Assembly (NCBI GenBank): GCA_025774205.1
Contig: JALGWK010000237.1
Span: forward strand, 1-6,978
Length of the DNA stretch: 6,978 bases
Source of the DNA: a bacterium
GTDB lineage: Bacteria > Blakebacterota > Blakebacteria > Blakebacterales > Blakebacteraceae
Direction: 5' to 3'
The position numbers and the translations under genes were made by a program. The notes beneath the pieces are model-generated. The model made no database searches and was not told the origin of the DNA. It saw nothing but the letters and a program-made list of their open reading frames with translations. Below, one piece after another: positions 21-6,413 of this stretch (its first letter is position 1; the number at the start of each line of letters is the position of its first letter).

Positions 21-653
21 TCATACCTGAGCGGTGTCGACCGCGCGCCAGAGGTAGATACTGGCCACCGTCCGCCACGGTTTCCATCGTTCGCCGTATT
101 CGATGATCTCTCGCGGGGCGGGATGCTCTTCGAGACCGCGCACGATCCGGAATCCGCTCTGGACTCCGTAATCGGTGGCTGCCAGCACGTCGGGCCGCCC
201 GAGGGCGAAGATCAGCAGCATCTGGGCCGTCCACGGTCCGATCCCCCGAACCATGGTCAGGCTCTCCACGATCTCCGCGTCGGTCATCCGCCGCAGGCGC
301 GCCGCTGTCGGAACGCTCCCGTCGATCACCTTCGCCGCCAGATCCATGATCGCCGCGCTCTTCGACCGGGAGAGACCGGCGCTCCGCAATGTCTTTTCCG
401 GAGTGGCCAGCACCTCCTCTGGCGTGGGAAACCGGTTCCCCTCATAGAGCGCCCGAAAACGTCCGAAGATCGTCGCGGCCGCTTTCCCGTTCAGCTGCTG
501 GTAGGTGATGGCTTCCGACAGGTAGCGGAAGGGACTCCGGAACGGTTTCAGCGGCAGCGTGACCGGGCCGATCCGTTCGATCAATTCCCCCAGCGACGGA
601 TCGCTCTCCGAGAGGGCCCTCCCCGCCTCCTCGAGACTGAAATCGGGTTCCAT
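21..653 (-). CDS. AlkA-like DNA-3-methyladenine glycosylase (HhH-GPD family)
   Basis: Base-excision repair enzyme predicted to cut alkylated purines from DNA in the cytoplasm. From the start chosen here the protein is 210 residues. It shows the HhH-GPD order: an N-terminal helical part with the AITYQQLNGKAA segment, the GLSRSKSAAI segment, the helix-hairpin-helix VRGIGPWTAQML (about residues 135-146), and the catalytic aspartate in AATDYGVQSG (about residue 161). The C-terminal RWKPWRTVASIYLWRA is typical of short AlkA/MagIII-like enzymes without the extra N-terminal domain of E. coli AlkA. The frame stays open upstream to an ATG at 815, but the extra residues look like nothing in the family. 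I chose the ATG at 653 because GGGAG (664-668) sits 10 bases upstream. The ATG at 662 is in frame but only one base from that site. No disruption is seen. Substrate range (3-methyladenine versus broader) cannot be read from the sequence. Confidence 0.9.
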   Translation of the reverse strand: MEPDFSLEEAGRALSESDPSLGELIERIGPVTLPLKPFRSPFRYLSEAITYQQLNGKAAATIFGRFRALYEGNRFPTPEEVLATPEKTLRSAGLSRSKSAAIMDLAAKVIDGSVPTAARLRRMTDAEIVESLTMVRGIGPWTAQMLLIFALGRPDVLAATDYGVQSGFRIVRGLEEHPAPREIIEYGERWKPWRTVASIYLWRAVDTAQV

Positions 654-878
654 GCCGCTCATGCTCCCTTCTGCCTGATGGTCCGGTCCGGCGTGCCTGT
701 TCGTGATACCTGTTCCGGATATCCATCCCGGATGACCGATCGAGACCCTGATGATGCAGCCGCTCCGAACCTGACCGCAAACCGGTTTTCCATCCACGAC
801 CGGTTTTTCTGTCATCCGCCGGGCGGATTTTCCAGTTTAATGGTCTGATACCCTTTAACCGGAGGGGCTCTGCTCTCC
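654..878. promoter_or_regulatory. Divergent intergenic region with ACCGGTTTT repeats
   Basis: About 225 bases lie between the divergently transcribed glycosylase and serine hydrolase genes, so promoters for both are expected here. I see no convincing sigma-70 type -35/-10 pair. The visible structure is a direct repeat ACCGGTTTT at 781-789 and 799-807, 18 bases apart start to start. The first copy sits inside the perfect palindrome AAACCGGTTT (779-788). An AT-richer stretch at about 830-858 precedes the hydrolase gene, and GGAGG (861-865) lies 13 bases before its ATG. No RNA gene or convincing small coding region is seen. Confidence 0.4.
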
Positions 879-2616
879 ATGTTCTGCCTCGCCATCCTTC
901 ACATAGCCGGCCCTCACCGGTCCGCCGCCCAGGAGGGCGGGACCGTGTCGGGTGAGATCGGCCGGCGACTCGATGAATACCTGACCCGGCTGGAAGGGGT
1001 TGGCTTCAGCGGGGTGGTCGTGGTGGCCAGGGAGGACGGGATCGCGCTCGAGAAGGGAGAGCGGGCGGCAGGTCACCGCCGGGACCGTCTTCTCCACCGG
1101 TTCGATCACCAAGCAGTTCACCGGGGCCGCGATCCTGAAGCTGGAGATGATGGGCCGGCTCTCGGTCGATGATCCCATGACCGACTACTTCGACAGTGTC
1201 CCGGCCGACAAGCAGGGAATAACTCTCCATCATCTGCTGACCCACACGGCCGGCTTCCCGGGCGCCATCGGGGATGATTTCGACGCCGGCGCCACAGCTG
1301 ATCGCTTCATGCAGCTCACCCTGGGAACGGAGCTGGGATCAGCGCCGGGCGTGCGGTACGAGTATTCGAACGTTGGTTTCAGTATCCTCGGCATCATCGT
1401 CGAACGTGTCTCCGGCATGGGGTACGAGGAGTTCCTGCGGGAGCATCTCTTCGAACCGGCCGGCATGACGCGGACGGGGTACCTCCTGCCCCGGTATGTC
1501 GATGCGGAACTGGCGGTCGGCTACCGTGATGGTGAGCGATGGGGGAGCGTGATCCGGAAGCCGATGCTCTCCGATGGACCCGGCTGGCACCTCCGCGCCA
1601 ACGGCGGGATCCATACTGTCGCCGGCGACATGTACCGCTGGTACCGTGCCCTGCAGGGGGAGGAGATCCTCTCCGCGGATGCGAAGGAGAAGTACTTCGC
1701 GCCGCACGCCGACGAGGGTGGCGGGGAATCGTTCTACGGCTACGGCTGGGTTACCGTGCCCGATTACATGGGCCGGCGACTGATCACCCACAATGGGGGG
1801 AACGGCATCTTTACCGCCGACTTCCGCTGGTTCCCCGATGACGAGGTGATGATCTTCGCCGCCTCCAACCTCTCGACCTTCGCCCCGGTAGATAACGTGA
1901 CCCGGGACCTCACCCGGCTCCTCTTCGGCTCCCCGGTCACCCTCCCCCCTGAGACCATCACGCTCGATGCGGAGGGTCTGGACCGATACACCGGTATCTA
2001 CCGGATGCCCGATGAGGGGCTGGTCGAGGTCGAACGGGCAGGTGGACATCTGCTGGTGAGAGGCTCGGGAGACCTCGCCCGGAACCTCCTGGCGGGTGGT
2101 GGCGGCGCGGGTGAGGATCCCGCCATCGAACGGTATTCGAGGCGAAGCGAAGAGATCCTCCGAAAGGCCATCGCCGGTGACTTCACGGGAATCCACGAGG
2201 CGCTCGGCGGGCGCATGCCCCTGGAAGAACTGGCCTCCGAAGAGCAAAACTGGATGGAGATGCGGGAGCAGCGCTACGGCACGTACCGCGATCTGGAGGC
2301 GGCCTTCGCCCTTCGCCAGGGGATGAGGGTTTCAGTCTGGATCGCCATTGAATATGAACGCGAGACCGGTTTCATCAGGTACGACTGGGGAGGCGGGGAA
2401 CTGATGGGGATCGAACTGGTGCGCGGGATACCCGGCGCCGAGGCGGAACTCTATCCGGTCTCCGCCACTAATTTCGAATCGTACTCCCTCCAATCACCGG
2501 TCCAGGTGAAGATCGGATTCGAGTTCGTGGAAGGCGATCCGACGCCGGCCGCGCTCTTCTTCACGACCGATCGCGGGAAGGTACGGGCTTCGAGAAGACC
2601 CGGCGGAAGCGGCTGA
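879..2616 (+). pseudogene. Exported serine hydrolase (class C beta-lactamase family, PF00144-like), frameshifted near the 5' end
   Basis: The family includes D-alanyl-D-alanine carboxypeptidases, esterases and class C beta-lactamases. The N-terminal part (879 to about 1058, 60 codons) has a short hydrophobic leader MFCLAILHIAG with a plausible SAA/Q cleavage site, then GFSGVVVVAREDGIALEKG. From about 1057 the protein continues one frame over, from RESGRQVTAG to the stop at 2614-2616. The catalytic motifs are all in the second part: S-I-T-K (Ser at 1102), Y-S-N (1363-1371) and H-N-G (1789-1797, in the KTG position). After the hydrolase domain comes a beta-rich stretch (LDRYTGIYRMPDEG, from about 1978) and roughly 170 further residues that I do not recognise. 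Relatives carry a conserved Y-G-x-A-D-R segment between the EKG and RESG parts; it is absent here, which fits a deletion of about 20 bases. The leader lacks the usual basic residues and GGAGG is 13 bases from the ATG, so the 5' end may be further degraded. The in-frame TTG at 1000 is not a credible start. Confidence 0.8.
1056..1057 (+). other. Frame break in the serine hydrolase gene
   Basis: Upstream codons (phase of 879) read ...L-E-K-G through 1058. The family-like sequence resumes in the phase of 1057 as E-S-G-R-Q-V-T-A-G-T-V-F. Going from one to the other leaves a single extra base, so the loss is 2 modulo 3. If the missing residues are the usual Y-G-x-A-D-R, about 20 bases are gone. The boundary could shift by a few bases because the local sequence is G-rich. 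Confidence 0.75.
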
Positions 2617-2649
2617 TCGCCGCCCCCGCCGGACAGATCCAGGTCGGTA
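2617..2649. other. Convergent 33-base gap between the hydrolase and oxidoreductase genes
   Basis: The stop codons of the two genes face each other here (2614-2616 plus strand, 2650-2652 minus strand). A small inverted repeat, GCGGC-TGATC-GCCGC (2609-2623), has the hydrolase stop codon in its loop. No run of T follows on either strand, so it is not a convincing intrinsic terminator. Nothing else is visible. Confidence 0.5.
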
Positions 2650-2775
2650 TCAGGCTGTGCCCGGTACCGGAACAACACCCCGCACGAGGTCGGAGGAACC
2701 GAATTCCAGCGGATCGGGTCCCAGCTTCATGTCGGAGTTCATCATCTCCTCCCAGGTGACCTCTTTACCGGTGTA

Positions 2776-2776
2776 A
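2776..2776 (-). other. 3' frame break in the oxidoreductase gene
   Basis: The main frame reads V-M-G-R-T through 2777 and then L-H-R and a TAA stop at 2767-2765. With the one base at 2776 set aside, the next frame continues Y-T-G-K-E-V-T-W-E-E-M-M, the usual C-terminal sequence of this subfamily. Relatives normally have two residues between R-T and Y-T-G-K, so a loss of 5 bases is the simplest reading. Insertion of one base is the alternative. Confidence 0.75.
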
Positions 2777-3185
2777 GGTCCGGCCCATGACGGCCACCAT
2801 GGTCGAGATGGCGGTGTTCTCCGCCTCGTTGAAAGCGCGGTTCTGCCTGATCGATGTCACCAGGTCGATGTGCTCCTGGAAGTAGGGCCGGGGACTGATC
2901 GGATTCCCCTCCTCGTTGATCTCGTAGGGGTATTCCCAGATCAGTTCACCCTGGTGGTTCCAGATCTTGTCGACGCCGTTGGTATACCCCTCGGTGCCCA
3001 TCAGGAATTCCGACACGTTGTTGGCACAGCCGGAGATCTGACGACACATGCTGTGGACGTGCCGGCCGTCCTCGAAGACATAGTCGATGCTGAAGTTGTC
3101 GAACTGGTCGCCGGAGGGACGCCGATGACGGCTGCCGAAGCCGACCGCCTTGACCGGGTGGCCGGCCATGAACCAGTGGGCTACG

Positions 3186-3217
<32 letters not shown>

Positions 3218-3721
3218 GTCGCCGGAACCCCAGATCCAGTTGACCCAGTCGCGGAGCATGAATTCGACATCGGTCCAGCCCCGCTGCCGTTCACGCCACC
3301 ACGGCACCTGGCCGTTCCAGTAGACGTTGGCCGAGACGACCCGGCCGATCGCGCCCCTGGTGACCTGCCTGAAAGTCTCCAGATAGTCAGTCTGGTGCCG
3401 GCGCTGGGTGCCGGTCACGATCGTGAGTCCCGCTCCCTCGGCTCTCCTGGCCGCTGCCATCACCGCCCGGATCCCGACCGGATCGACCCCCGCCGGTTTC
3501 TCCATGAAGATGTGCTTCCGGGCATCGACGGCGGCTTCGAAATGTGAGGGCCTGAAATAGGGCGGCGTGGCCAGGAGGACCACGTCGACATCGGTCTCGA
3601 GGAGCCGTTCATGGCAATCGAAACCGGTGAAGCAGTTTTCGTCGGCAACCTGGACATCGTTGCGTTCCCGGAGGGTGTTGCGGCACCCGTCAAGCCGGTC
3701 CTGGAAAACATCAGCCAGGGC

Positions 3722-3723
3722 GG
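3722..3723 (-). other. 5' frame break in the oxidoreductase gene with loss of the nucleotide-binding motif
   Basis: Frame one ends sensibly at G-P-V-L-K-V (last codon 3726-3724). The family sequence resumes at A-L-A-D-V-F (first codon 3721-3719). Two bases are left between them, so the missing length is 1 modulo 3. If the usual stretch of about 25-26 residues is gone, about 76 bases are missing. The lost part corresponds to the first beta strand end, the glycine loop and the first helix of the Rossmann fold. Confidence 0.8.
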
Positions 3724-3916
3724 TACCTTGAGGACCGGTCCGTCAGGGGCGGTCTCGAGCATGTCCGGATATTGATAATCGGCATAGACGTCGCCCATCC
3801 CGCTGCCGCCGCAGCCGGCCGCCACCAGTCCAGCGGCGCCCGCGGCTCCCACCAGCCCCGCGATCTCGATGAATTCTCTCCGGTTGGGTCCATCCTTCTT
3901 CTCGCTCATGGAACGG

Positions 3917-3969: not shown

Positions 3970-5472
3970 TCAGCTCCCCCTGTCATCAAGTTCGCATACT
4001 ACACGGAATCCAACATCGATACAGTCTGAATACCACCAGATGCTCTTCGGGATCTGGGGATCGGTCATCAACCAGGCTTCGGTACGGGTCCGGTCACGCG
4101 CCGCCGACCTCGTTGCGACGGGATCGCTCCTGAAGGAACCTCCCCGGACAACCCGTTCTCTCCCCTCTGAAGGTCCGGTCGGATCGACGATCGGATCTCC
4201 TTCAGGATGGTCTCCATAGGCGTCGACGGCGTACCAGTCGAGGCAGAACTCCCGCACGTTCCCGAGCATGTTGACCAGGCCGAACGGGTTGGGCCGGGTA
4301 TCTCCGGGGGGTTGTGTTTTCCCGCTGCTGTTGCCGGTATGGATCACCCACGGATCGATCCCTTCACTTCGGCTGCCGAACACCCGGTTCCAGAACCGAT
4401 CCCGGGTGAACATCTTCGGATCACCTTCGAAGAAGTAGGGCGTATCGGTACCGCCCCGGCAGGCATACTCCCATTCGGCTTCGGTCGGCAGCCGATAACG
4501 GCGGCCGGTGACACTCGAGAGCCATTCGCAGTAGGCCAGGGCGGCATGGTGGGTCATGGTGATGGCCGGCCGTTCTCCCCTCCCCCACCCCTGGTCGGGA
4601 GGGACATAAGGAGGGGTTGCGCCGGTGACAGCGTCGATCGTGGGATCGGCAGCGGCATCGAGCGCCCGTGTATCGGTCCGGCCCTCCGAGGCAGTGGCAC
4701 GGTACCACGCCTCGAACTCGTCCCAGGTCACCTCGATCCGGCCCATCCAGAATGAGGACACGCTCACTTGTCGCGTGGGTTCCTCATCGGGTCTCCGGTA
4801 CCGCTCCTTCGACGGACTCCCCATGGTGAAGATCCCGCCCGGAACAGCAACCATCTCGAAATCGATAGTGGTGCCGGGGACCTGCTCGGTGAAGTCGGTG
4901 AAGCCCTCCACCACGGCGGACCGGTCGTAGATTTCCTGTTCTACGGTGGTGGTGATCCCGAACGCTTCGCCAGTCGTGGCGTCGGGATCGTAATGACCCA
5001 CATACAGGTGGCAGTTGATGCAGCGGAGTTCCTCTTCCTTCCGCTCATAGTAGAGATGGGCCTCCTCCCCCTTGTCCGACAACTGCATGGGGAAGAGGTT
5101 GCTGTGGCAGGTGAGGCACGATTCCCGGAATACATGTGTCCGGGCGTGCTCCAGCATGGATCGCTCATCCCAGTCGAACTTCTCCGGATTCTTGAAGAGC
5201 TTGCCGAGCAGGTCGCGGACGCCGAGCCGCGTCTTCTGGATCACGTAGGCGATGCCGCCGGGCGGGAGATGACACTCCACACAGTGGATCACCATCCCGC
5301 TCTGTGTGCTGTAGTGGGTGGATTGTTTCCAGGAGGTGGTCGCCTGGGGGTGGACATGACACGATTCGCAGAACCGGTCGGAGGAGGTGAGCGAATTGCC
5401 GGTTCTGACCAGCGTGAGGGCCAGAATCCCGATCGCGATCCCGAGGGTGACAGGGTGCCGCAGATACTTCAT
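3970..5472 (-). CDS. Membrane-anchored NapC/NrfH-type tetraheme cytochrome c fused to a SUMF1/FGE-like domain
   Basis: A 500-residue two-domain protein. Residues 8-23 form one N-terminal membrane helix. Four c-type heme sites follow: CESCH (35-39), CVECH (64-68), CLTCH (119-123) and CINCH (151-155). CVECHLPPGG and the following helix (AYVIQKTRLGVRDLLGKL) are typical of NapC/NirT/NrfH quinol dehydrogenases, which pass electrons from membrane quinols to periplasmic partners. Residues from about 203 to 495 are a SUMF1 (formylglycine-generating enzyme-like, PF03781) domain: VPGGIFTMGS, FWMGRIEVTWDEF, RPAITMTHHAALAYCEWLS, YRLPTEAEWEYACRGGT, GNVREFCLDWY, RVVRGGSF, VGFRVV. The segment after RGGSF reads RSDPVATRSAARDR, so the two copper-binding cysteines of true FGE are missing. 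Conversion of sulfatase cysteine to formylglycine is therefore unlikely; a binding or structural role is my inference. The ATG at 5472 overlaps the upstream stop by one base (TGATG), with only a weak GGATGG nearby, so translation is probably coupled. No disruption is seen. Confidence 0.9.
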   Translation of the reverse strand: MKYLRHPVTLGIAIGILALTLVRTGNSLTSSDRFCESCHVHPQATTSWKQSTHYSTQSGMVIHCVECHLPPGGIAYVIQKTRLGVRDLLGKLFKNPEKFDWDERSMLEHARTHVFRESCLTCHSNLFPMQLSDKGEEAHLYYERKEEELRCINCHLYVGHYDPDATTGEAFGITTTVEQEIYDRSAVVEGFTDFTEQVPGTTIDFEMVAVPGGIFTMGSPSKERYRRPDEEPTRQVSVSSFWMGRIEVTWDEFEAWYRATASEGRTDTRALDAAADPTIDAVTGATPPYVPPDQGWGRGERPAITMTHHAALAYCEWLSSVTGRRYRLPTEAEWEYACRGGTDTPYFFEGDPKMFTRDRFWNRVFGSRSEGIDPWVIHTGNSSGKTQPPGDTRPNPFGLVNMLGNVREFCLDWYAVDAYGDHPEGDPIVDPTGPSEGRERVVRGGSFRSDPVATRSAARDRTRTEAWLMTDPQIPKSIWWYSDCIDVGFRVVCELDDRGS

Positions 5473-6413
5473 CAGGCCATCCGGAACGTCTCACGAGCGA
5501 AAGCCACGTTCCGGCGGGTATCCTCGAGAAACTGGTCCCTCCGGCCGCTCGTCTCCAGCACCAGCCACTTGTCGTAACCGATCTCATCAAGCACCGCCGC
5601 GGCGGCAGCGTTATCCACCATGCATCCCTCGCTGCCGAGCAGGGGGGTGTTCCAGTCCTTCAGGTGCACCTCGCAGAGGCGGTCATTGCCGATCAGACGC
5701 AGTTCGCCGGGCACGTCGTACCCGTTGCCGGTGGAGTTGCCCAGATCATAGTAGATCTGCACCTGGTCCGATCCCACCTGCTCGATGATATCCAGGCTCT
5801 GACGGGCGGTGATGGTGTTCTCCAGTCCGATGATCACCCCGGCGTCCCGGGCACGGGGTACGACCTGGATGAGCGTATCCACGACCGAGGCAACCTTTTC
5901 GTCGTCCAGCCGGAAGGAGGAGAATTCCCCTTCCTTCTCGTCTACGGGATCTCCAGCCTCATCATGCCAGCGGAGATCGCCGTTCCCGAAGAAGGCGAGC
6001 AGGATGTTGGAGGCGCCCAGGGCCGCGGCCGTTTCGATGGCGTCCACCACCCAGACCGCGCTCCGCGGCTCGGTGGCGAGGGGATAGGTGTTGAGCATCC
6101 CGATCGCGACCGAATGGAAGGTGATACCGTTGAGAGCGCCCTGCTCCAGATAGAGACGGCGGAGTTCGGGGTCCCTCAGGAGGATGTTCTCCGGGTCCCG
6201 TCCCAGGCTCACCTGGATCCCCTCCAGGTCCGCTTCCCGGGCCAGGGCGATCTTCTCGGGATCGCACATCGGTCCGAGGTTCCAGTCGCAAATCCCCACG
6301 CCTGCGGCTCCGATGGTGGGCAGTACTGTTCGGCTGCAGCCGGTCATGGCCGACAGCTGGAGCGCGGCCAGGCCGACTCCGGCACTCTCGAAGAAGCTTC
6401 TCCGGTTCATCAT
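5472..6413 (-). CDS. Tat-exported lipoprotein, sugar phosphate isomerase/epimerase-like TIM barrel
   Basis: A 313-residue protein of the AP-endonuclease-2/xylose isomerase-like TIM barrel family (PF01261). The leader has a twin-arginine motif (N-R-R-S-F-F, R4 and R5), a hydrophobic stretch and a lipobox-like MTGC (C26), so the protein is probably exported folded and lipid-anchored. The barrel shows the usual divalent-metal ligands: Glu198 in GLENT, Asp223 in YYDLGNST, His250 in EVHLKDW and Glu287 in VLETSG. The segment LGASNILLAFFGNGDLR is typical of the exported group in this family. Such proteins act on free sugars or modified glycosides rather than sugar phosphates in several known systems. 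Examples are the oxidoreductase plus isomerase-fold pairs that cleave C-glycosides through 3-keto sugars; whether this one does is inference. AGGAGG (6419-6424) lies 5 bases before the first ATG and 8 before the second (6410), so either could be used. The gene starts directly after the apbE stop and ends one base into the cytochrome gene. It appears intact. Confidence 0.9.
   Translation of the reverse strand: MMNRRSFFESAGVGLAALQLSAMTGCSRTVLPTIGAAGVGICDWNLGPMCDPEKIALAREADLEGIQVSLGRDPENILLRDPELRRLYLEQGALNGITFHSVAIGMLNTYPLATEPRSAVWVVDAIETAAALGASNILLAFFGNGDLRWHDEAGDPVDEKEGEFSSFRLDDEKVASVVDTLIQVVPRARDAGVIIGLENTITARQSLDIIEQVGSDQVQIYYDLGNSTGNGYDVPGELRLIGNDRLCEVHLKDWNTPLLGSEGCMVDNAAAAAVLDEIGYDKWLVLETSGRRDQFLEDTRRNVAFARETFRMA

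Follow-up and report, generated by a model that had tools for sequence, protein, structure and literature searches.

Gene content and domain architecture of the locus

The window, as the whole 6,978 bp stretch of DNA analysed here is termed, constitutes an entire contig of a genome that is distributed over 527 contigs and is 86 % complete. Four genes, all on the minus strand, encode in order an ApbE protein, a TIM-barrel protein, a fusion of a tetrahaem cytochrome and a SUMF-fold domain, and a Gfo/Idh/MocA family protein (Table 1). The apbE gene ends directly before the TIM-barrel gene, the stop codon of which overlaps the start of the fusion gene by one base (TGATG). The cluster is flanked by genes coding for two seemingly unrelated proteins, a HhH-GPD DNA glycosylase-type protein (positions 21-815, minus strand) and a serine beta-lactamase-family protein (PF00144; positions 1000-2616, plus strand).

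Table 1. Features of the fusion gene and its neighbours, with positions in the window
Feature	Position	Strand	Evidence
Fused NapC/NrfH-type tetrahaem domain and SUMF-fold domain, 500 aa	3970..5472	minus	ORF, Pfam, NCBIfam, homologues
N-terminal membrane helix of the fusion, residues about 5-29	5385..5460	minus	Structure model and hydropathy
Four CXXCH haem sites, residues 35-39, 64-68, 119-123 and 151-155	5008..5370	minus	
SUMF-fold domain (Pfam stretch), residues 206-460, without FGE cysteine pair	4093..4857	minus	
DAVTGAT, residues 280-286, exact ApbE flavinylation motif, not family-conserved	4615..4635	minus	
AP_endonuc_2 TIM-barrel protein, twin-arginine-like start NRRSFF	5472..6413	minus	
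ApbE (FAD:protein FMN transferase), 5' end lost at contig edge	6414..6977	minus	Pfam, NCBIfam
Gfo/Idh/MocA gene, TAT signal and lipobox-like cysteine, broken	2656..3909	minus	Pfam

The union of a NapC/NrfH-type tetrahaem domain and a SUMF fold within a single frame, as proposed in an earlier sequence-only reading of this DNA, was borne out by the open reading frame, the Pfam matches, the haem motifs and the homologues. The frame is devoid of internal stops, and both halves score well above the curated Pfam cut-offs, with the NapC/NirT cytochrome domain (Cytochrom_NNT) matching residues 8-164 (E = 8e-30) and the FGE-sulfatase domain matching the stretch given in Table 1 (E = 3e-44). Shuffling the protein 20,000 times never gave four CXXCH motifs. 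The N-terminal helix spans residues 7-29 in the structure model, and hydropathy is highest for the segment starting at residue 4. The model has a mean pLDDT of 60, drops below 50 in the motif loop as well as in parts of the haem domain, and is too poor for reading domain contacts or haem-to-pocket distances.

Distribution of the fusion

A scan using one genome per species returned eighty loci, including two (L038 and L105) where the match is absent from the called ORFs. Both halves are encoded by a single gene in all seventy-five aligned full-length rows, window included, and the carriers belong to the Bacteroidota, Calditrichota and Gemmatimonadota, among others, and include one MAG labelled Latescibacterota. 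Close homologues encoded as two separate genes were sought as a sign of an assembly effect, and none with split halves was found among the homologue loci examined. Instead, at least seventy-three full-length single-gene homologues occur in other genomes, and the fusion is thus genuine rather than an assembly join. A profile search of eighty-two genomes in the phylum of genome G047 distinguished twenty-three carriers, twenty-two with near whole-length proteins and one cut by a contig edge. When 118 genomes were drawn evenly across the phylum of genome G070, the fusion occurred in G070 alone, and it is therefore rare across that phylum as a whole.

The closest stand-alone SUMF relative (L009; 48 % identity) consists of a membrane helix and a SUMF domain and lacks haem motifs; a cytochrome gene is likewise absent from the 3.5 kb examined. 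At a further locus (L018, positions 548-3627), a stand-alone SUMF gene lies beside ThuA-like, ApbE and Gfo-like genes, which suggests that the SUMF fold also meets a sugar setting in the absence of a cytochrome.

The tetrahaem half

The haem half resembles the NrfH/NapC tetrahaem quinol dehydrogenases (PF03264) in its N-terminal membrane helix, its four CXXCH motifs, and a lysine and an aspartate at the positions of K82 and D89 in the solved NrfH structure, which form the quinone site of that protein. The corresponding K80 and D87 of the fusion, as well as all four CXXCH motifs, are invariant in forty-five homologue rows. It differs from NrfH in carrying an invariant histidine (His41), two residues past the first CXXCH, where NrfH has a methionine, and in the approximately 300 further residues which make up the SUMF fold. 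Furthermore, the next gene encodes a Gfo/Idh/MocA protein, while that of the NrfH/NapC family encodes a nitrite or nitrate reductase. The scores lie below the equivalog or subfamily cut-offs for NrfH (73 against 134 bits), NapC/NirT (57 against 311 bits) and TorC (64 against 478 bits). On profile scores, the haem half is thus classified as a member of the Pfam superfamily only, and not as an NrfH, NapC or TorC equivalog. The earlier proposal that the protein links the quinone pool to a periplasmic redox step is plausible in view of the invariant K80 and D87.

Pairing with a putatively exported Gfo/Idh/MocA protein

The sequence-only reading had the SUMF domain replacing the separate partner to which NapC/NrfH proteins usually pass electrons. 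This finds no support, as a candidate partner, a TAT-type Gfo/Idh/MocA protein, is almost always encoded by the next gene. When the phyla and gene neighbourhoods carrying the architecture were mapped, several phyla were represented and a Gfo gene followed on the same strand in 75/76 loci with downstream DNA, with a median gap of 24.5 bp. A twin-arginine pair is present in 74/74 of the Gfo proteins examined, and a cysteine follows the hydrophobic stretch in 73/74, resembling TAT lipoproteins; the neighbour at L103 is a second Gfo type without this cysteine. The window copy contains two frame changes and has lost about 26 codons, including the glycine-rich nucleotide-binding motif, and represents either an assembly error or a pseudogene.

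The two genes also co-occur in each of two samples drawn separately, in counts and p values which ignore shared ancestry. Among the eighty-two genomes of the G047 phylum, Gfo is found in 22/23 fusion carriers (the exception being cut by a contig edge) and 1/59 non-carriers (Fisher p = 1e-17). The partial matches in G129 and G140 count as presences here, and weaker relatives of Gfo, which score under about 500 bits and for the most part begin past position 50, do not. Among seventy-nine genomes of a family sample around G070 (Bacteroidota), Gfo is found in 49/53 with and 7/26 without the fusion (p = 4e-9). The orphan Gfo in one fusion-less genome (G101) lacks the cysteine. Twenty genomes of the family sample, G070 among them, have two fusion copies; 12/20 contain two complete adjacent fusion-Gfo pairs, a sign that the two genes were duplicated or transferred together. 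In 8/20, no Gfo is listed within 500 bp of one of the fusion copies. Neighbourhood and co-occurrence amount to functional linkage, and not to proof of physical contact.

The Gfo proteins keep the glycine-rich nucleotide site, the lysine of the EKP motif and a histidine aligned with the conserved histidine of inositol dehydrogenase. Their closest counterparts among solved structures are inositol dehydrogenases, DgpA, an aldose-aldose oxidoreductase and a glucuronide 3-dehydrogenase. The superfamily is shared with the BT_2158 and BT_2159 glycoside 3-dehydrogenases, of which the BT_2158 family matches the partner weakly in the N-terminal part. Considering that scores of 19-36 bits fall far below the cut-offs of both families (750 and 650 bits), the partner belongs to neither and its substrate can only be inferred.

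Close neighbours in other loci include ThuA proteins, 3-keto-disaccharide hydrolases (3keto-disac_hyd), AP_endonuc_2 TIM barrels and further Gfo proteins. In one Calditrichia genome, the fusion is directly preceded by the gene of a PQQ-dependent alcohol dehydrogenase that carries a cytochrome c domain (L102, positions 5638-7851). A gene for an MsrA-MsrB fusion occurs in twenty-seven loci, all of the Bacteroidota, and in most of them it lies immediately upstream of the NapC-SUMF gene and has the same orientation (for example L050, positions 6905-7837). This arrangement would fit a fusion that supplies electrons to a periplasmic methionine sulfoxide reductase, a role considered very improbable because the gene is limited to part of the Bacteroidota loci and is absent from the window and the other phyla, while Gfo occurs throughout.

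The SUMF half

The nearest solved folds to the SUMF half are those of the formylglycine-generating enzyme (FGE) and PvdO. With the former (SUMF1, PF03781) it shares the fold as well as core motifs, among them RLPTEAEWEYA and RGGS, and differs in being joined to haems and in lacking the copper cysteines. The family profile contains no cysteine counterpart to the copper-binding segment LCHESYC, nor is the FGE pair formed by the conserved Cys 315, 410 and 484. The SUMF half is thus no FGE, a role in sulfatase maturation was rejected, and the protein cysteine oxidation for which the earlier reading had cited this fold is contradicted. An anaerobic formylglycine-generating, sulfatase-maturing enzyme in which quinone replaces oxygen would account for a fold and sequence closest to FGE, and is nonetheless extremely improbable given that both copper-binding cysteines are missing and that the immediate neighbours of the fusion are not sulfatases. 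A regex screen for sulfatases returned no matches; the same screen overlooked a sulfatase-like ORF in L037, and this result is hence no evidence. Ergothioneine-type C-S chemistry, also raised previously, fares no better: the DinB domain of EgtB/OvoA-type sulfoxide synthases, which holds the iron-binding histidines, has no Pfam match in the fusion, where the N-terminal half is of the NapC type.

In NCBIfam, the SUMF half matches PvdO best (dihydropyoverdine dehydrogenase; E = 7e-31), a protein with an extracytoplasmic redox role. Together with the similarity in fold, this raises the possibility that the SUMF half is a PvdO-like redox enzyme acting on a small molecule or the Gfo product, with the haems shuttling its electrons to or from quinone. 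However, at 107.3 bits the match stays below the cut-off of 500 bits, no histidine occurs in the columns conserved at 97 % or above, the conserved cysteines form no FGE pair, PvdO lacks a haem domain and its gene setting differs. As such an enzyme alone would also leave the tie to the Gfo gene unexplained, it is considered unlikely.

The ApbE motif

Residues 280-286 of the window protein match exactly the ApbE flavinylation motif D-x-x-[S/T]-G-A-[S/T] (PMC12052999). ApbE might thus flavinylate the SUMF half covalently at Thr286, and a haem-flavin wire could split a hydride into single electrons. Both G284 and T286 are invariant in seventy-five rows, and a co-directional apbE gene lies near the fusion in the window and in L034, L035, L102 and L163. 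While the exact motif looked decisive, half of the family has GPT in place of GAT (30/75 rows in the first alignment and 45/91 in a larger one), at least four changes are forced on the tree at this site, and GPT is present even in the apbE-adjacent L102 and L163. The stand-alone relative at L009 reads TRPSP at the motif position. Furthermore, the co-occurrence of apbE is uninformative, since nearly every genome carries this gene (33/34 genomes). Covalent flavinylation was therefore set aside as quite unlikely, and the motif in the window protein, judged by its variation across the family, is probably coincidental.

A putative route from extracytoplasmic sugars to quinone

The reading preferred here, which we give about an even chance, is that the fusion and the exported sugar or cyclitol Gfo make up a periplasmic oxidoreductase of two proteins, in which the fusion is the subunit that is anchored in the membrane, linked to quinone, and responsible for electron transfer and docking. 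The NapC/NrfH half would trade electrons with the (mena)quinone pool, while the SUMF half, lacking the catalytic cysteines of FGE, may hold the partner, the substrate of the partner, or both. For the adjacent Gfo/Idh/MocA protein, export through the TAT pathway is predicted, probably as a lipoprotein that is tethered to the membrane and binds its nicotinamide cofactor tightly. Most likely, such a complex would act outside the cytoplasm, taking electrons from a sugar, glycoside or cyclitol and handing them to quinone, and the product may then be processed by the TIM-barrel, ThuA and 3-keto-sugar hydrolase proteins. The direction is probably from sugar to quinone, since alcohol oxidation with menaquinone as acceptor is downhill.

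This two-protein arrangement would entail the delivery of single electrons from a hydride carrier to haem. We know of no Gfo/Idh/MocA enzyme that hands electrons directly to haem, and no conserved one-electron mediator was found. Covalent FMN would solve the hydride-to-haem step; flavinylation is, however, unlikely for the reasons given above. There is a slim chance that the system constitutes a respiratory sugar dehydrogenase of a new class. In it, electrons would pass from the exported nicotinamide enzyme through the haem-SUMF protein to quinone, and the lineages with GAT would add covalent FMN on the SUMF domain to convert hydride into single electrons.

The open-access literature searched yielded no description of the haem-SUMF architecture, and two flavinylation surveys make no mention of SUMF or NapC. 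As far as the searches reached, what is new is the combination of components of known kinds, together with the neighbour conserved beside it. A two-gene unit shared by several phyla would connect the quinone pool with the sugar chemistry of Gfo/Idh/MocA proteins in the periplasm, and the recurrent pairing suggests an undescribed wiring of extracytoplasmic sugar chemistry to the respiratory chain, which also places the SUMF fold in a new setting, that of membrane electron transfer. To our knowledge, the re-oxidation of the cofactor by exported Gfo/Idh/MocA enzymes is settled only for the self-recycling GFOR/AAOR type, and the fusion-Gfo pair makes this question testable with two proteins.

A comparable system is found in other bacteria, where DUF1080 hydrolases, which include a 3-ketotrehalose hydrolase, adjoin membrane-bound lactose 3-dehydrogenases (PMC9007349). 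The LacABC-type glycoside 3-dehydrogenases and the loci described here have in common a membrane-linked periplasmic sugar oxidation, proposed in the present case, and 3-keto-sugar hydrolases encoded nearby. They differ in the dehydrogenase, which is LacABC in the former (PMC9007349) and would be the Gfo/Idh/MocA protein with its NapC-SUMF partner in the latter.
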